DNA from: Methylocystaceae bacterium
GTDB taxonomy: Bacteria; Pseudomonadota; Alphaproteobacteria; Rhizobiales; Beijerinckiaceae
DNA length: 5,216 nucleotides
Assembly: GCA_003152255.1 (NCBI GenBank)
Contig: PLZT01000746.1
Span: forward strand, 1 to 5,216
Direction: 5' to 3'
Shown here piece by piece: positions 31 to 5,216 of the stretch (within the stretch, counting starts at the first letter, position 1; each line of letters starts with the position of its first letter). Position numbers and translations under genes: made by a program. The notes under the pieces are model-generated. The model was not told where the DNA came from. It saw nothing but the letters and a program-made list of their open reading frames with translations, and made no database searches.

Positions 31-1500
31 TTATCTTCCGTCCGGTGTGTCGAGGCCGAACCATTTGTCTTTGACTTGCTCGTAGTGGATCGTTGGATCG
101 TATTCCGCGACATTGAGGTTCAGATCGCGCACCGACAAGCGGCCGACCGCTGCGAGGGCGGCGAAGGACGCGACCACGCGATCATGCTGCGCGATGACGA
201 GATTGACCCGCGCGCTCAACAGCGCCTGTTGCGCGTTGAGGATGTCCAGCGTTGTTCGCTGCCCGACTTTCGCCTCTTCACGCACATCCGCGAGCGATTT
301 TTCCGAAGCCGCGACCTCCACCTGGCTCGAGACAATCGACGCCTTGGCCGCTTGCAACTGCGCGTAAGCAAAGACGACGCTCCTGCGCACGTTGTCCCGC
401 TGCACGTCGACACGCAGTCGCGCCTGGCCCAATTGTTCCTTGGCTTTGCGGATCGAGGCATATTCCGAGCCGCCCTGATACAGGGGGACATTCAGCGTCG
501 CCGCCGCCAGAGCATAGAACTGCCGGGTGCCCGTCCAGCCCATAAAAGAATCCCCTTGCGGCGAGACTTGCGCGCCTACCGCCAACGTCGGCGCCAAAGC
601 GCTTTCCGCCAGTTTCACCGCCTCTTCCGCCGCATCGACCTGATGCAGCGCCGCAACCACGGCCGGATGCTCTACGAGTGCGAGGGAAACCGCATTTTCC
701 ATCGATCTGGGCAACAGCTTCTCGACAGTCCCCGCAGGCTCCAACCGCTTGGGTTCGACACCCACGACCTGACGGTATGTGGCCCCGCTCATTTGGAGAA
801 CCGCCTGGGCGCTAAAGAAATCTGAACGCCCGTGCGCCAAGGCGGCCTCCGCCTGCGCGACGTCCGCGGCGGTCACCTCACCGAACTGGTAACGTACGCG
901 TGTATGCCTGAGTTGCTCCTCTAACACGGCGTTGTTGTTCTTGCGCAGACCTAGGATCGCCGTATCGCGTAACACGTCCATAAAGGCGATGACGCCGTTC
1001 TGGAGGATGGTCTGCTCGCTGGCGCCAAGGTTCGCCCGCGCCGCGAACACGCCAGACTCGGCTTGCCGGACGGCGCTCTGCGTGCGGCCGCCATCGAAAA
1101 TGGTCTGGGATACGGAAAGCGTCGCGCTACGCGGCTTGCCCAGATATTCGTCGGTGAAATATGCGCGTTGGCCGGTCGCGGTGCGGCCGGACGGAATTTT
1201 GATGGTGGAAAATTCCGGCCCAATGGAAGCGGCGAGGCCCGCCTTCGGCCGCATTCCCGCGAGCGCGTTCGTCGTATCCTCGTCCTGCGCCCGGACGCCG
1301 GACCGTTGTTGATTGATCTCGGGATTGCTGGAATAGGCTCTTGCCAACGCGGAATTCAAGGTTTCGGCGACAGCGCCTTGGCCGGGGAGTCCGATGAACG
1401 ACGTAACCAATGCGGTAACGCCCAGCCCGGTCGGAAAGATGCGCGCACGCCCACTGGCGCGACGCATGAGACAGCGAGACGTCGCAAACCAATATGTCAT
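31..1500 (-). CDS. TolC-family outer-membrane efflux channel protein
   Basis: This is a complete TolC-type outer-membrane factor of about 489 residues, the usual size for the family. It would form a trimeric beta-barrel plus periplasmic alpha-barrel exit duct for a tripartite efflux or type I secretion system. Counting from the ATG at 1500, a signal peptide with a hydrophobic core ends near residue 45 (AVA|ET). The two internal structural repeats each carry the family's strand-turn motif: SQTIFDGG near 131-138 and NVPLYQGG near 337-344. The late helical motif VGQRTTLDILNAQQ lies near 412-425. The start is uncertain. TTG at 1518, ATG at 1500 and ATG at 1467 are all in frame, none has a good Shine-Dalgarno sequence, and 1467 would still leave a full signal peptide. 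It is the last visible gene of the minus-strand operon, 52 bases after the DUF302 gene, and is the natural partner of the divergent adaptor at 4250. The substrate is unknown. Confidence 0.93.
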   Translation of the reverse strand: MTYWFATSRCLMRRASGRARIFPTGLGVTALVTSFIGLPGQGAVAETLNSALARAYSSNPEINQQRSGVRAQDEDTTNALAGMRPKAGLAASIGPEFSTIKIPSGRTATGQRAYFTDEYLGKPRSATLSVSQTIFDGGRTQSAVRQAESGVFAARANLGASEQTILQNGVIAFMDVLRDTAILGLRKNNNAVLEEQLRHTRVRYQFGEVTAADVAQAEAALAHGRSDFFSAQAVLQMSGATYRQVVGVEPKRLEPAGTVEKLLPRSMENAVSLALVEHPAVVAALHQVDAAEEAVKLAESALAPTLAVGAQVSPQGDSFMGWTGTRQFYALAAATLNVPLYQGGSEYASIRKAKEQLGQARLRVDVQRDNVRRSVVFAYAQLQAAKASIVSSQVEVAASEKSLADVREEAKVGQRTTLDILNAQQALLSARVNLVIAQHDRVVASFAALAAVGRLSVRDLNLNVAEYDPTIHYEQVKDKWFGLDTPDGR

Positions 1501-1552
1501 CGAACGCCAGCGTCTCAATGGATCATGCCCCGCTTATATCGCGTTGGCGCCT

Positions 1553-1939
1553 TCAAATTGCGCTGACAACCCGTGAAAGCCGCTCCGCGACTTCCTCGGC
1601 TATTTCCGCGAGCGCGGGATTTCCGATTCCACGCATCGCCACGCGGGGATCGATGGCCGCTATGTCCACCTCGCCGCCGTCCTTCTCCTGGACGACGACG
1701 TTGCAAGGCAGCATCACGCCGATTTTGTCTTCAACGCTCAGCGCCTTGTGCGCGAAGCCCGGATTGCAGGCGCCGAGAATGCGATAACGTTTCATCTCGA
1801 CGCCGAGCTTTTGTTTCAACGTGTTCGCAACGTCGATTTCGGTGAGGACGCCAAAGCCTTCATCCTTCAACTTCTCTATCACTTTCGATACAACGGCGTC
1901 GAAATCGCCCTTCGGCGACTTTGTGATGTAGTAGCTCAT
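1553..1939 (-). CDS. DUF302 domain-containing protein
   Basis: This 128-residue protein is a stand-alone DUF302 domain of normal length. Family hallmarks are visible: GFGVLTEIDV near 28-37, KLGVEMKRYRILGACNP near 44-60, AHKAL near 63-67, LPCNVVV near 77-83, and a closing IDP near 95-97. It has two cysteines (58 and 79), both inside these conserved motifs. No signal peptide or membrane segment is evident, so it is probably cytoplasmic. The biochemical role of DUF302 is not established, and I do not assign one. The ATG at 1939 is supported by a GGAGAA Shine-Dalgarno sequence at 1948-1953 with an 8-base spacer. The gene begins 24 bases after the SQR stop codon, which argues for co-transcription and a role tied to sulfide handling or its by-products. 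Confidence 0.92.
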   Translation of the reverse strand: MSYYITKSPKGDFDAVVSKVIEKLKDEGFGVLTEIDVANTLKQKLGVEMKRYRILGACNPGFAHKALSVEDKIGVMLPCNVVVQEKDGGEVDIAAIDPRVAMRGIGNPALAEIAEEVAERLSRVVSAI

Positions 1940-1963
1940 GGCTGGCGTTCTCCAAAATTGCCG

Positions 1964-3262
1964 TTACGCGTTTGTCCCGGAGCGCAAACGAACGATTCCA
2001 AGCGCCTTCATTATGACGCGCTCATACACAGGCTCGCAATGCCCCCTGCGAACCTTGCGCATAAAATACTTCTCATAGGCCACTTTAGCCAGATGCACCC
2101 AATAGCCTTGGGCCGACCAGTTGATATTGCGCGGCGGGATTTGCGGCTGGGCGACAAAGATGATGCCGTTATCGCCAAAATCCGCGAGACAAACCGCGTT
2201 CCAAGTTCCCTCGTGCGTCGCTTCCTTGCCTGCGATCAAGTCTCGGATGTTGTGCGCGGCCGCCGTGCACATGGATTCGATCATGTAACCGGTCTTGGGC
2301 ATGCCCACCGGCACCGGCGTCGACTCGAATGGCGGAAGCGCGACGCAGACGCCGATCGAAAAGATGTTGGCGTATTTGGCGTTCCTCTGCTTTCCGTCGA
2401 CGGTCACGAAGCCGCGCGGATTGGTCAGACCCTCGATCCATTTGCCGTCCTCGCCCTTAAGGCAGTCGACGCCGCGGAAAGCGGGAAGGAACATCGTGAA
2501 CTTCGACGCGATCTTATGCGTTTTCTTTTGCGATCCGTCCTCATTGAATTCCGTCGCCTCGACCGAATCGGCGTTGATGCGGTCGATTTTCGCGTTTGTC
2601 ACCCATTTGATGTCGCGATCGCGCATCACGGATTCCAGCATGCCCTTGGTGTCGCCCACGCCGCCGAGGCCGAGATGGCCGATATAGGGTTCGGAAGTCA
2701 TGAAAGTGATCGGCACGCGGTCGCGAATCTTGCGCTTGCGTAGATCGGCGACCGCCGTGAGCGCATATTCATAAGCGGGGCCAAAGCAGGACGCGCCCTG
2801 CACCGCGCCAATGACCATCGGGCCGGGGTCCTTGCAGAATTCTTCCCAACGCTCGCCGGCTATCCCGGCGTGATCGACGTGGCAAACAGATTGTGCATGC
2901 CCGCTCGGTCCCAGTCCCTCAACTTCATCGAAGGCGAGGTGCGGGCCAGTCGCGATCACCAGATAGTCATAGAAAAGCGTCGAACCGTCGTTCAACTCGA
3001 CTAGGTTTTCTGAAGGCTTCACGCGTTTTGCGCCAACGGACGTGAAACCGATCTTCAACTTCTTGAACACTGCGGGAAGATTGACCTTCACGTCGCCCGG
3101 CTTGCGCCAATTGACGGCGACCCAGGGGTTCGACGGCACGAACTGGAAGTAGTCAGTTAGTGAAACGACGGTGATGTCAGCTTTCTTGCCGAGCAGTTCC
3201 TTCAGCTCGAAAGCCATGGGCACGCCGCCGATGCCGGCGCCCAATACAACAATCTTGGTCAT
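1964..3262 (-). CDS. sqr: Sulfide:quinone oxidoreductase (SQR)
   Basis: This 432-residue flavoprotein oxidises sulfide to zero-valent sulfur or polysulfide and passes electrons through FAD to the membrane quinone pool. It carries an N-terminal dinucleotide-binding loop GAGIGG (8-13), the DYFQFVPSNPWV segment (37-48) and the second FAD motif YDYLVIATGP (98-107). The three catalytic cysteines of SQR are present: Cys127 in SVCHVDHA, Cys159 in GASCFGPAYEYA and Cys358 in TWNAVCLADFGD. From memory, these match Cys128, Cys160 and Cys356 of the Acidithiobacillus ferrooxidans enzyme, and similarity runs along the whole chain. The quinone-site segment TPVPVGMPKTGYMIES is at 315-330. An amphipathic, aromatic and basic C-terminal region (about 380-408) fits monotopic membrane attachment. 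The three cysteines distinguish it from flavocytochrome c sulfide dehydrogenase and type II NADH dehydrogenase. The start is ATG at 3262, preceded only by a weak purine-rich GAGAGAGA tract. It sits 81 bases after the upstream DUF2892 gene. Confidence 0.96.
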   Translation of the reverse strand: MTKIVVLGAGIGGVPMAFELKELLGKKADITVVSLTDYFQFVPSNPWVAVNWRKPGDVKVNLPAVFKKLKIGFTSVGAKRVKPSENLVELNDGSTLFYDYLVIATGPHLAFDEVEGLGPSGHAQSVCHVDHAGIAGERWEEFCKDPGPMVIGAVQGASCFGPAYEYALTAVADLRKRKIRDRVPITFMTSEPYIGHLGLGGVGDTKGMLESVMRDRDIKWVTNAKIDRINADSVEATEFNEDGSQKKTHKIASKFTMFLPAFRGVDCLKGEDGKWIEGLTNPRGFVTVDGKQRNAKYANIFSIGVCVALPPFESTPVPVGMPKTGYMIESMCTAAAHNIRDLIAGKEATHEGTWNAVCLADFGDNGIIFVAQPQIPPRNINWSAQGYWVHLAKVAYEKYFMRKVRRGHCEPVYERVIMKALGIVRLRSGTNA

Positions 3263-3343
3263 GGCGTCTCTCTCTTTTTTGCGCAGATTCCATGACGCAA
3301 AGCGCTGGTCCGCGGCGTTTTGTTGGGCATTGGGATTAGAGGT

Positions 3344-3547
3344 TTACCTGCGCGAATAGGTGCTCACGCCAAGCAGGCTGTAAAGCGGGCAAGTGCCGAT
3401 AAAGGCAGTGAGCAGAGGCACGACTCCGATCCAGCCAACCCAATTCCAGCCGGTGCTGGGCAAGCCGAGTTTGAGCGCATAGGCAATCAGCATTAGGCCG
3501 ATGACGATACGCAATGCACGATCGATGGTTCCGACATTGGTGACCAT
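3344..3547 (-). CDS. DUF2892 (YgaP-like transmembrane) small membrane protein
   Basis: This 67-residue protein has the classical DUF2892 pattern. It opens with NVGTIDRALRIVIG (4-17), then has two hydrophobic helices (about 10-28 and 36-52), and ends with the signature TCPLYSLLGVST (52-63). Cys53 sits at the end of the second helix. It is expected in the inner membrane. The same domain forms the membrane part of YgaP-type rhodaneses, and stand-alone copies are common beside sulfide and persulfide genes, but the molecular function is unknown. Many relatives, as I recall them, end in a second cysteine after this signature. Here that place is taken by Tyr (STYSRR), leaving one cysteine. The ATG at 3547 has a strong AGGAG Shine-Dalgarno sequence at 3555-3559 with a 7-base spacer. 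It follows the other DUF2892 gene by 52 bases and precedes sqr by 81 bases. Confidence 0.93.
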   Translation of the reverse strand: MVTNVGTIDRALRIVIGLMLIAYALKLGLPSTGWNWVGWIGVVPLLTAFIGTCPLYSLLGVSTYSRR

Positions 3548-3571
3548 ATTTTATCTCCTGACGACCAAAGA

Positions 3572-3611
3572 CGCCGCGTTTATGGACAAAGGCGGCGCGC
3601 TAAAACGCCGC
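3572..3611 (-). repeat. Alternating GC-rich inverted repeats at the end of the second DUF2892 gene
   Basis: CGCCGC (3572-3577), GCGGCG (3592-3597) and CGCCGC (3606-3611) allow two mutually exclusive 6-bp hairpins around the TAG stop at 3600-3602: one with a 14-base loop and one with an 8-base loop. There is no following U-run, so this is not a convincing terminator. It might stabilise mRNA or tune expression between the two membrane-protein genes, or be chance in GC-rich DNA. Confidence 0.3.
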
Positions 3612-3800
3612 GCCCGGCTTTACGCCGAATTTCTTCAAAATGAGCGCGAGCGGGCAGAAACTTGTAAAGGCGGCCTGGAAAAGATTCAGCCCGACAAAGG
3701 CTGCGAGCAGCAGCCACCACGGGCCGAAGAGATCGGCGAGCCCGAGGCTCACAAGGATCATGGCGCCAGCGAAAGCCATAATGATTCGGTCTATAGTCAT
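3600..3800 (-). CDS. Second DUF2892-type small membrane protein
   Basis: This 66-residue hydrophobic protein has two predicted membrane helices (about 5-22 and 27-46), followed by NLFQAAFTSFCPLALILKKFGV (39-60) with one cysteine (Cys49) in a CPL motif. It belongs to the DUF2892 superfamily but to a different branch from its neighbour: its N-terminus is MTIDRIIM rather than NVGTIDR, and CPL is followed by ALILKK. The frame stays open upstream to 3908, but that extension is charged, lies inside the arsR gene and is unlikely to be translated. The ATG at 3800 is chosen because it has a GAAGGGA Shine-Dalgarno sequence at 3809-3815 with an 8-base spacer and overlaps the repressor's TGA stop as ATGA. 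This implies translational coupling. Its function is unknown. Transport or binding of a sulfur species is only a guess from context. Confidence 0.9.
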   Translation of the reverse strand: MTIDRIIMAFAGAMILVSLGLADLFGPWWLLLAAFVGLNLFQAAFTSFCPLALILKKFGVKPGAAF

Positions 3801-4192
3801 GCGGCGCGTCCCTTCGATTTTGTGAGGCCGAGCGAACAACTCGCCTTCGCGCTTACCTTTTGTCCCGCCTTCTTCCGCTTTTGTTTTGCATCGCATTCGT
3901 CGGCGCAAAACAATTCGTAAAGCAAAGCTATCGCCCGCGAGACATTGGCATTGGCGAGCGAATAAAAGATGGCCTGCGATTCTCGTCGCGTTGTGACGAG
4001 TTCGTCTTCGCGCAGACGGGCAAGATGTTGCGAAAGCGAGGATTGGCTGAGGCCAAGCGCCTTTTGCAGCGCGGAGACACCAGTCTCGCCCTTATGTAGT
4101 TCGCACAGGATCATCAGGCGGCGGCGGTTAGCCAAAGCCTTCAGAAAGTTTTCCGCCTGCACGGCTTTTGGAGCGAGTTTCTCTAAATTCAT
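3797..4192 (-). CDS. ArsR-family repressor, BigR/SqrR-like sulfide/persulfide sensor
   Basis: This 131-residue ArsR/SmtB winged-helix regulator is placed first in the minus-strand operon. Residues 13-35 (ENFLKALANRRRLMILCEL region) form the opening helices. SALQKALGLSQSSLSQHLARLRE (40-62) is the helix-turn-helix with its recognition helix, and LVTTRRESQAIFYSL (65-79) is the beta wing. Cys30 and Cys96 are 66 residues apart. As I recall the family, this is the same spacing as the reactive pair Cys41/Cys107 of Rhodobacter SqrR and Cys42/Cys108 of BigR, which form disulfide or polysulfide bridges on sulfide exposure. The ELxVCD metal site of classical ArsR is absent: the equivalent segment reads RRLMILCEL. 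An unusual Lys/Ala-rich tail (101-131) adds Cys119, and Cys100 is also present. The frame continues upstream to a TTG at 4228, but that codon lies in the -35 box, so ATG 4192 is preferred. It probably represses its own operon and the divergent adaptor. Confidence 0.93.
   Translation of the reverse strand: MNLEKLAPKAVQAENFLKALANRRRLMILCELHKGETGVSALQKALGLSQSSLSQHLARLREDELVTTRRESQAIFYSLANANVSRAIALLYELFCADECDAKQKRKKAGQKVSAKASCSLGLTKSKGRAA
3809..3815 (-). promoter_or_regulatory. Ribosome binding site inside arsR for the overlapping DUF2892 gene
   Basis: GAAGGGA on the minus strand lies 8 bases before ATG 3800, inside the last codons of the repressor gene. It selects the short 66-residue protein over the 102-codon open frame and supports translational coupling through the ATGA overlap. 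Confidence 0.7.
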
Positions 4193-4194
4193 GC

Positions 4195-4221
4195 TTGCTA
4201 AATTATAGATAAGCAATATAA
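4195..4221. promoter_or_regulatory. Candidate ArsR/BigR-type operator (two interleaved dyads)
   Basis: Two inverted repeats lie between the divergent genes. One is TTATA-N9-TATAA (4203-4221), perfect in its arms. The other spans 4195-4216, with outer arms TTGCT and AGCAA and partial symmetry inside (8 of 11 positions per half). Both cover the -10 region of the minus promoter, and the second also covers the -35 of the plus promoter. An AT-rich imperfect palindrome across the promoter is typical of ArsR-family operators. Which dyad is bound, if either, cannot be told from sequence. Confidence 0.5.
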
Positions 4222-4222
4222 G
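4195..4222 (+). promoter_or_regulatory. Candidate promoter of the divergent adaptor gene
   Basis: On the plus strand TTGCTA (4195-4200) is a -35-like element, separated by 16 bases from TATAAG (4217-4222), a -10-like element. A start near 4229 would leave a roughly 20-base leader containing the Shine-Dalgarno sequence before ATG 4250. It overlaps the minus-strand promoter almost completely, so polymerases would compete for the site. The match is weaker than the opposing promoter. Confidence 0.5.
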
Positions 4223-4228
4223 TGTCAA
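4202..4228 (-). promoter_or_regulatory. Promoter of the arsR-sqr-tolC operon
   Basis: On the minus strand a perfect TTGACA (-35, at 4223-4228) is followed after 15 bases by a perfect TATAAT (-10, at 4202-4207). The spacer is shorter than the optimal 17, although shifted -10 readings such as TAATTT would restore 17. Transcription would begin near 4194-4196, only a few bases before the ATG at 4192. The perfect hexamers in an otherwise GC-rich window make this a strong candidate. Confidence 0.7.
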
Positions 4229-4237
4229 GGCCTTTCC

Positions 4238-4246
4238 AAGGGGGAA
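4238..4246 (+). promoter_or_regulatory. Ribosome binding site of the adaptor gene
   Basis: The AAGGGGGAA tract, a strong Shine-Dalgarno match, ends a few bases before ATG 4250 and decides that start over the in-frame upstream region. Confidence 0.75.
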
Positions 4247-4249
4247 TCG

Positions 4250-5216
4250 ATGCGGACGAGTTTCACCTTCCTATCGCGAGTTTGTGTCGGCCTTATCTTG
4301 GTGCTGAGCGCGGCTCTTTCCGGCTGGGCCGGCGCCGGGGAGATCGCCGTGCATGTCGCGTCGATCGACGATCTCAAGGCCGTGGTCGCAACGGTCGAGC
4401 CCGTTCATCAGCTTGTCGCCCGGGCGCGAATCGGCGGCACGGTCACGGCGCTGAAGATCAAAGAAGGCGATGTCGTCGTGGCGGGCGCCGAAATCGCGCT
4501 GGTCGCTGACCAAAAGCTGTTTTTGCAGATGCAGGCGCTGGATCAGCGAATCAAATCGCAACAGGCGCAACGCGATAAGGCGAAAGCCGACTTCGATCGC
4601 GCGCAGGAGTTGCTTCAGCGCGGCGTCACAACGAAAGTGATGTTCGATCAAGCCAAAACCATGCTCGACGTGGCGGATCGCAATCTCGCGGCGATTCGCT
4701 CCGACCGTGGCGTGATCGAACAGCAGGCGGCCGAGGGCGCCGTGCTCGCACCGGGAGCGGGGCGCATCCTGACCATTCCCGTGTCTGTTGGGCGCGCGGT
4801 CATGCCCGGTGAAACTATCGCGACCCTTGCGGAAGAGCACTATATCCTTCGCCTTCAATTGCCCGAGCGTCACGCCAGATTCATGCGCGCTGGCGATCCT
4901 GTGCAAATCGGCGGACGCGGTTTGCACGACGAAGCCAGCGCAACACGCAAAGAAGGCCGTGTGCGCATCGTCTATCCTGAGATTCAGGGCGGACGCGTCA
5001 TCGCCGACGTCGATGTCCAGGGTCTTGGCGATTATTTCGTTGGAGAGCGCACGCGCGTTTACGTGACCACGGGGAAGCGCGATACGATCATTGCGCCGCG
5101 CGAAGCGATCTATCGTCGCGCGGGCGTCGATTACGTTCGCTTGAAAGACGGAGCCGAGATCGTGATCCAGACTGGCGAGCAGCGTGCGGAGGGCTTAGAG
5201 CCTGACCTAAAATTGG
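4250..5216 (+). CDS. RND/HlyD-type periplasmic adaptor (membrane fusion protein), 3'-partial
   Basis: This is an efflux adaptor with 322 codons visible. The frame is open to the window edge and the C-terminus is missing. A signal peptide occupies residues 1 to about 29 (hydrophobic core VGLILVLSAALSG, likely cut near AGA|GE) with no lipobox cysteine. The first barrel-sandwich half is at about 51-87 (RARIGGTVTALKIKEGDVV). An alpha-helical hairpin runs at about 88-162 (a run of Gln, Lys, Asp and Ala, with LLQRGVTTKVMFDQAKTML at the turn and return helix), the short type seen in AcrA-like RND adaptors. The second barrel-sandwich half is at about 163-194 (APGAGRI to GETIATLAEE). The beta-barrel follows from about 198, and the membrane-proximal domain begins near 281 (APREAIYRR). 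ATG 4250 is fixed by the Shine-Dalgarno sequence at 4238-4246. It is divergent from the arsR-sqr operon, whose last gene encodes a matching TolC. An RND pump gene is expected downstream. The substrate is unknown. Confidence 0.92.
   Translation, partial: MRTSFTFLSRVCVGLILVLSAALSGWAGAGEIAVHVASIDDLKAVVATVEPVHQLVARARIGGTVTALKIKEGDVVVAGAEIALVADQKLFLQMQALDQRIKSQQAQRDKAKADFDRAQELLQRGVTTKVMFDQAKTMLDVADRNLAAIRSDRGVIEQQAAEGAVLAPGAGRILTIPVSVGRAVMPGETIATLAEEHYILRLQLPERHARFMRAGDPVQIGGRGLHDEASATRKEGRVRIVYPEIQGGRVIADVDVQGLGDYFVGERTRVYVTTGKRDTIIAPREAIYRRAGVDYVRLKDGAEIVIQTGEQRAEGLEPDLKL

Follow-up and report, generated by a model that had tools for sequence, protein, structure and literature searches.

What becomes of the reactive product of sulfide:quinone oxidoreductase (SQR) in bacteria without a complete route of sulfur oxidation? 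The question is raised by a stretch of 5,216 nucleotides from a Methylocystaceae bacterium (contig PLZT01000746.1), hereafter the window. Its minus strand carries, in this order, genes for an ArsR-family regulator, two DUF2892 proteins (a and b), SQR, a DUF302 protein and a TolC-family outer membrane channel; the adaptor of a resistance-nodulation-division (RND) pump is encoded divergently. An earlier note made from the sequence alone had named these seven genes, and all of them were recovered with profile or structure matches when the window was analyzed by domain and curated-model profile searches and by comparison with PDB chains. We find that the pairing of this SQR with an RND pump is well supported. 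We read the locus, with a probability of about 0.45, as a detoxification module switched by sulfane sulfur that oxidizes sulfide and expels the product.

The SQR protein was compared with solved structures and matches the sulfide-quinone reductase chain 3sz0. Cysteines 127, 159 and 358, which we take to be the catalytic ones, are common to the window protein and 3sz0, and cysteines 127, 159, 306 and 358 are invariant in all 81 aligned sequences. By its similarity to a solved SQR and its redox cysteines the protein is assigned to this family.

A survey of SQR neighborhoods across genomes, which the earlier note had named as a check on the link, confirmed that RND genes are frequent neighbors. 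The best 80 of more than 500 SQR loci were taken from named genomes, and the set leans towards relatives of the window because the best SQR matches were chosen. By domain mapping, 49 of the 80 loci have RND components no more than 2.6 kb from SQR and 21 have none despite sufficient flanks; the remaining 10 were too short. The following loci have one or both flanks under about 3 kb and no RND components, and were left out of the linked and unlinked counts: L016, L018, L021, L025, L033, L052, L067, L068, L075 and L079. The pump itself is seen in 45 of the 49 linked loci, and in the other four (L010, L046, L063 and L077) the contig ends early. RND matches occur in the background at about one per 356 kb (140 matches, including some split genes, in 11 genomes that total 49.8 Mb), so that an RND neighbor within 6 kb is expected by chance in about 5% of loci. 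Domain-level mapping replaced two coarser approaches, a rough clustering of open reading frames (66 loci, with shadow frames counted) and a less strict linkage label (51 loci with and 30 without RND components).

The pairing occurs in at least four gene orders, distributed over Alpha-, Beta- and Gammaproteobacteria. In the layout of the window, the pump and adaptor genes are divergent from ArsR-DUF2892-SQR (L001-L004, L006, L050); in the variant L032 DUF2892 follows SQR, as it does in L005, where no ArsR gene was called in between. The second layout is adaptor-SQR-pump on a single strand (L008, L031, L043, L047, L053, L055, L064, L069-L071), and the third is SQR-(DUF2892)-TolC-adaptor-pump (L019, L027, L028, L039, L051 and others). 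A TolC/adaptor/pump unit divergent from SQR makes up the fourth (L015, L054, L059, L060). The DUF302 gene directly follows SQR in L206, as in the window, and SQR-DUF2892 on plasmid 2 of Methylocella tundrae; it comes after the pump and DUF2892 genes in L053 and in L043, where the row reads adaptor, SQR, pump, DUF2892, DUF302, TolC. In the close relatives L001-L007, L050 and L110 the pump gene adjoins the adaptor gene. The last of these is the closest genome fetched (SQR 84% identical to that of the window): one arm carries the pump and adaptor genes, the other ArsR, DUF2892, SQR and TolC. Its adaptor, 69% identical to the window adaptor, is followed by an RND pump of 1087 amino acids, and the TolC protein encoded after SQR is 69% identical to the window TolC over 445 amino acids. 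The window encodes the adaptor and TolC parts of a tripartite RND set; the pump gene, seen in such relatives, is expected beyond position 5216.

Co-occurrence was assessed in 149 genomes of the family of Methylocapsa aurea, to which the window belongs, with SQR accepted at an E-value of 1e-100 or better and the pump from 60% identity upwards (below this, no match exceeds 43%). SQR is present in 29 and the pump in 49 of these genomes. All 29 genomes with SQR have the pump, versus 20 of the 120 without SQR (p 4e-18, kinship ignored). Among 20 SQR stretches fetched from this family, the pump and adaptor lie within the mapped stretch in 12. An evenly drawn sample of 385 Alphaproteobacteria (pump at 59% identity or more) gave SQR in 14 genomes, the pump in 29 and both in 11, that is, 11/14 versus 18/371 (p 2e-11, again with kinship ignored). 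In 9 of the 14 SQR genomes no more than about 5 kb separates the pump from SQR: this holds for seven of twelve fetched stretches and for the centre genome G002 and G027, which were judged by coordinates. In these counts G562, with 45% identity, was not scored as having the pump, and an unrelated RND pump 3 kb from SQR in L199 was not scored as a pairing. The pairing is common in alphaproteobacterial carriers and in certain lineages of Beta- and Gammaproteobacteria (methanotrophs, Nitrosomonas, some Rhodocyclaceae and relatives), and is no rule for this SQR.

The pumps adjacent to SQR form three groups, termed A (Alphaproteobacteria), B (methanotrophs and Nitrosomonas) and C (Betaproteobacteria), and all three fall within one RND clade (support 100, with long-branch warnings on the tree). 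SQR-linked lineages are interleaved with unlinked ones in the tree; SQR may have joined this RND subfamily several times, or the pairing may have been lost several times. In lineage C, SQR stands between adaptor and pump with gaps of less than 100 bp (L043, L071). The sister pumps of group A (L208, L215-L217) are not beside SQR by their coordinates: two are far from it, one is on another contig, and one belongs to a genome without such an SQR. The pumps of four relatives were scored against curated models, and the nearest was RND_permease_2 with 402-430 bits (412 for L001; cut-off 1250). The CusA/CzcA model TIGR00914 gave 232-267 bits (267 for L001) and the AcrB-type model TIGR00915 241-272 bits (241 for L001), neither reaching its cut-off of 701 and 940, respectively. 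All scores against the multidrug models NF033617 and NF000282 (1250) and TIGR00915 (940) are at most 430 bits and below the cut-offs; the pumps do belong to the general ACR_tran family. In the PDB, the L110 pump is closest to 7wlv (228 bits), followed by CmeB (202), ZneA (173), MexB (171) and AcrB (about 145). Judged by these scores and the tree, the pumps paired with SQR constitute a divergent RND subfamily.

An arginine in transmembrane segment 10 (TM10) is present in all 74 pumps of groups A-C and in 10 of 18 other RND pumps. Two sequence marks were considered and rejected. The double aspartate of TM4, taken as a sign of a non-metal pump, occurs in 74 of 74 pumps of groups A-C but is nearly as frequent among other RND pumps (17 of 18), and for this reason says little about metal transport. 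The lack of cysteines as a mark of exposure to polysulfide (12 of 12 pumps in C, 38 of 46 in A, 8 of 16 in B) is no functional mark, since the sister lineage without sulfur genes is also devoid of cysteines (17/17). As a separate observation, an adaptor-RND pump unit beside genes of a LysR regulator and an AI-2E-family transporter is conserved in Beta- and Gammaproteobacteria (L157, L159, L160, L164, L169 and others).

The earlier note had described the regulator as a BigR/SqrR-like sensor. It retains both cysteines at the sensing positions and matches HlyU and BigR-type structures in the PDB; its score of 87.1 bits against the NCBIfam BigR equivalog NF040642 is under the cut-off of 155, and it is BigR/SqrR-like rather than a curated BigR. 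Among ArsR matches near pump, adaptor or SQR genes in the loci fetched by then, 46 of 51 keep both sensing cysteines. The regulator is likely a sensor of sulfane sulfur.

The adaptor arm and the SQR arm diverge from one control region, as had been proposed from the gene order, and this arrangement is conserved in relatives. The region spans 57 bp between the regulator start codon (4192) and the adaptor start (4250). It contains two predicted promoters that overlap, the -35 element of each touching or overlapping the -10 element of the opposite one, and they keep a fixed place across the aligned divergent control regions. A left promoter scoring at least 11/12 together with a right promoter scoring at least 9/10 was found in 16 of 28 divergent ArsR/adaptor regions (shuffled sequences average about 7-8 and 6-7), a count that is partly circular because the consensus was derived from the same 28 regions. 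An imperfect inverted repeat, ATT-N10-AAT, spans the middle in the window and nine others of the 28 and is a candidate operator. A repressor bound at this place would be expected to shut both arms together. We also considered ATTC-N8-GAAT, presumably the strict SqrR-type repeat, and rejected it as a general rule; of 55 upstream regions, 15 have a relaxed form where 1.2 would be expected, and the window does not contain the relaxed form. The predicted -10 element of the regulator is located 7 bp before its start codon (window 4192-4205), a spacing that recurs in many relatives, and because of this spacing the transcript is predicted to be leaderless.

Lineage A pumps without an adjoining SQR were collected in 20 stretches, 15 from genomes without this SQR and five from genomes that have it elsewhere. 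An ArsR homolog with both sensing cysteines is nearby in 16 of the 20 and a DUF2892 protein in 10, and four of ten tested neighboring proteins are rhodaneses. The pump appears to be tied to control of the sulfane-sulfur type even where SQR is absent. The earlier note had pointed to the lack of a rhodanese; this is correct for the window and does not extend to the module, as a rhodanese gene adjoins the pump or SQR in several relatives. The module is also found on plasmids. SQR was detected by tblastn on 31 plasmid records (E-value 1e-60 or better), and in five of six stretches chosen from 20 listed, an annotated adaptor and pump are near SQR. On a conjugative plasmid of Rhizorhabdus wittichii these are accompanied by TolC. 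Plasmid 2 of Methylocella tundrae has the order adaptor, a stretch long enough for a pump but with no gene annotated, ArsR, DUF2892, SQR, DUF2892, DUF302; the unannotated stretch is at L130 4013-7392, and this locus has two ArsR genes, both with the two sensing cysteines. No near match to the window was found among the plasmids.

We propose the following mechanism. Without sulfide stress, the repressor would occupy the 57-bp region and block both divergent promoters. Sulfide would raise the level of persulfide or polysulfide, which would bridge the two cysteines of the repressor and free both arms. SQR would then oxidize sulfide at the membrane and pass the electrons to quinone, yielding polysulfide, S0 chains or a low-molecular-weight persulfide, and the adaptor, the expected RND pump and TolC would export this product, or something derived directly from it, out of the periplasm or the inner membrane. 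The DUF2892 and DUF302 proteins may handle or shuttle sulfane sulfur. A bolder form of this proposal is that the SQR-paired RND subfamily is devoted to the export of sulfane sulfur, whether as polysulfide, S0 chains or persulfide, in a module assembled several times and borne on plasmids, and that its carriers detoxify by two-electron oxidation plus expulsion under one bidirectional switch; in this form we regard it as doubtful. If it were true, the methanotrophs, nitrifiers and heterotrophs with the pairing, many of them without SoxB, would rid themselves of sulfide in this way. SoxB is absent from 35 of 46 tested linked loci.

The module is a variant of the known sulfide-detoxification operons controlled by BigR/SqrR, with one published relative, in Azospira. 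In the parts of the literature within our search, which mostly left out subscription journals, we found no description of a conserved SQR-RND module and no demonstration that a tripartite pump transports sulfane sulfur; the portions available of PMC10128140, PMC8399692, PMC2864759 and PMC12113291 have nothing on the pairing. The Azospira suillum PS genes Dsui_3440-3443 encode an unknown protein, an efflux pump, SQR and an RND adaptor; they are highly expressed with sulfide and were a Bar-seq hit whose direction the available text does not state (PMC5358917). As in the module described here, SQR shares one operon with adaptor and pump, and the order adaptor-SQR-pump-small protein is that of lineage C. 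In contrast to the window, the available account of this one organism describes no regulator, divergent arm or TolC, and the two are likened by description only. By this analogy, an operon with the layout of lineage C is induced by sulfide and gives a Bar-seq signal in Azospira (PMC5358917). Another DUF2892 gene, apart from this operon, showed a roughly 10-fold increase in the same work (PMC5358917).

ArsR regulators with conserved cysteines are reported near sqr, sox, pdo, rhd and shdr genes and also near RND pump genes, the latter named as shown or likely transporters of sulfur compounds (PMC12423496). The BigR/SqrR/sHdrR regulons resemble the window in having a Cys-Cys ArsR repressor that adjoins sulfide-handling genes, with RND pumps among the neighbors (PMC12423496; SqrR, PMC9995734). 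They differ in that the emphasis of the available passages is on sqr, sox, persulfide dioxygenase, rhodanese, shdr, TauE and YeeE, and no conserved SQR-RND unit is described there. In Synechocystis, suoS-suoR and suoC-suoT have a common control region and a DUF302 gene in the neighborhood (PMC4307280, PMC5061849). This system shares with the window a type I SQR and an ArsR repressor acting on a common divergent promoter region, along with a transporter and a relative of DUF302, and differs from it in being located on a cyanobacterial plasmid and in that the transporter is the arsenite-linked SuoT and not an RND tripartite pump, as far as the accessible text goes. According to the same sources, a multidrug efflux pump gene is upstream of sqr2 in Geitlerinema (PMC4307280, PMC5061849). 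Sulfane sulfur induces MexAB through MexR, so a multidrug efflux pump can be turned on by it, although MexR belongs to the MarR family and the unit, as described in the available part, contains no SQR (PMC9495516).

Several observations weigh against a module of sulfide oxidation and product export. The link between sulfide oxidation and efflux claimed in the earlier note holds for the control region, the neighborhoods and the co-occurrence within the family; as a general adjacency it fails. The pump adjoined SQR in none of 20 SQR loci taken in even steps through 104 genomes of Beta- and Gammaproteobacteria (in three of these loci one flank ends after at most about 1.2 kb, and in one locus a weak adaptor-like match lies 4 kb off). 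A pump like that of lineage C lies within 2 kb on the same contig in only five of the 104 SQR genomes, centre genome included. The co-occurrence in these two classes (55/104 SQR genomes versus 47/265, p 5e-11) was set aside, because most of 20 pump stretches represent the sister lineage near LysR and AI-2E-transporter genes and the threshold mixed two things; the query would also miss lineage B pumps. That close sister lineage of C is mostly beside LysR and AI-2E-transporter genes and not beside sulfur genes. Within the family of the window, 20 genomes have the pump without this SQR, and 8 of the 20 SQR stretches contain no pump, their genomes carrying it elsewhere. The curated models leave the pump type unsettled, below every multidrug and metal cut-off. 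The absence of SoxB, considered as an indication that the module takes the place of further oxidation (SoxB in 11/46 linked versus 11/21 unlinked loci, p 0.028), was rejected: the contrast vanishes once kinship is allowed for, with no signal in four independent pairs on well-supported branches. In this test one linked positive (L023) is a fragment below the cut-off, L010, L041 and L077 are outside, and L049 was given the value of L019, with which it shares an assembly prefix. Finally, deletion of SQR or of the whole operon in Azospira left the rate of perchlorate-linked sulfide oxidation unchanged, and its authors suggest export of metal sulfide and a general response to toxicity (PMC5358917). 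The unchanged rate would fit a protective role outside bulk oxidation; it would equally fit efflux as a response to general stress.

The latter possibility, that sulfide poisons respiration and damages the envelope and that the regulator turns on a broad multidrug pump together with SQR, with no sulfur substrate for the pump, is in our estimate unlikely. It draws on the induction of MexAB via MexR (PMC9495516) and on the further RND pumps that rose under sulfide in Azospira (PMC5358917), but it poorly explains why one RND subfamily was chosen among the 6-22 RND matches per genome, why co-occurrence is 29/29, or why SQR is placed between adaptor and pump in lineage C. Export of metals, metalloids or complexes of metal and sulfide that come with sulfide stress, with SQR merely a co-regulated neighbor, seems a shade less probable still. 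This is the interpretation of the Azospira authors (PMC5358917), and an arsenite transporter occurs in the cyanobacterial SQR/ArsR/DUF302 neighborhood (PMC4307280, PMC5061849). The comparisons with solved and modeled pumps cut both ways: for L110 the metal pump ZneA outscores MexB and AcrB, and for L001 the CusA/CzcA model outscores TIGR00915, yet the top models and chains are multidrug-named or general (RND_permease_2, CmeB, 7wlv) and the CusA/CzcA cut-off is far above the scores. An arsenic operon adjoins SQR on the Rhizobium sp. SL42 plasmid, one of the six annotated plasmid stretches and the only one with arsenic genes.

It is also conceivable, though very unlikely, that the pump removes a methylated or organic sulfur compound and not polysulfide, with associated methyltransferases making thiols or sulfides from sulfide. 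This is suggested by class I methyltransferase genes near SQR in L001, L130 and L133, the last of which also has a gene of the isoprenylcysteine-methyltransferase family; the window has no methyltransferase gene, and the cases are three of the loci looked at. Chance neighborhood or simple inherited synteny without a functional link is already disfavored and the least probable reading. Many of the loci are related, and adjacency is rare in Beta- and Gammaproteobacteria at large; against this stand the variety of gene orders (at least four) and of pump lineages (three), the copies on plasmids and the shared promoters, as well as co-occurrence in genomes where the SQR and pump genes stand apart. 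Oxidation of sulfide by SQR followed by export of the product is directly testable by deletion and sulfur speciation, because the carriers include named cultured organisms (Methylocella tundrae, Methylocapsa, Methylococcus, Azospira), and it bears on the sulfide tolerance of methanotrophs where methane and sulfide meet.

The features of the window are listed in Table 1. Gaps on the minus strand are small (about 25 bp between SQR and DUF302, 34 bp between DUF302 and TolC). A scan of the window for terminator-like sites gave seven versus 6.5 expected by chance, and the three on the minus strand are all intragenic; the minus-strand genes may share a transcript. The gene for DUF2892 protein a is recurrent in relatives. 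The adaptor scores 89.6 bits against TIGR01730, slightly under the cut-off of 94.9, because the protein is cut by the end of the window.

Table 1. Genes and predicted control elements in the 5,216-nucleotide window.
Feature	Position	Strand	Basis or remark
TolC-family outer membrane channel	31..1518	-	PF02321; TIGR01844 293.5 bits, cut-off 225
DUF302 protein	1553..1939	-	PF03625
Sulfide:quinone oxidoreductase (SQR), 432 aa	1964..3262	-	476 bits, E 6e-142 to 3sz0
YgaP-like transmembrane (DUF2892) protein b	3344..3547	-	PF11127
YgaP-like transmembrane (DUF2892) protein a	about 3800-3600	-	PF11127; ATG overlaps ArsR stop as ATGA
ArsR-family repressor, BigR/SqrR/HlyU type	3797..4192	-	HTH_5; ATG at 4192, stop 3797
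Overlapping divergent promoters (predicted)	4195..4228	both	aligned divergent control regions
Rightward promoter (predicted)	TTGCTA 4195-4200, N16, TATAAG 4217-4222	+	aligned control regions
Leftward promoter (predicted)	TTGACA 4228-4223, N17, TAATTT 4205-4200	-	aligned control regions
Candidate operator, imperfect inverted repeat ATT-N10-AAT	4202-4217		between the two promoters
RND periplasmic adaptor (membrane fusion protein)	4250..5216	+	PF16576, PF13437; 3' end cut by window end

Further genes were observed near SQR in individual loci. The class I enzymes mentioned above are SAM-dependent methyltransferases (L001 11366-11968, L130 12075-12737, L133 9852-10959); together with the isoprenylcysteine-methyltransferase-family gene of L133 they could provide a side route of sulfide or thiol methylation. 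The arsenic resistance operon on the Rhizobium sp. SL42 plasmid (L134 10490-13586) is beside SQR and near RND genes and echoes the cyanobacterial link between SQR and arsenite. Genes of the carboxymuconolactone decarboxylase family are near SQR on three plasmids (L132 10778-11119, L133 9488-9841, L135 7572-7925).

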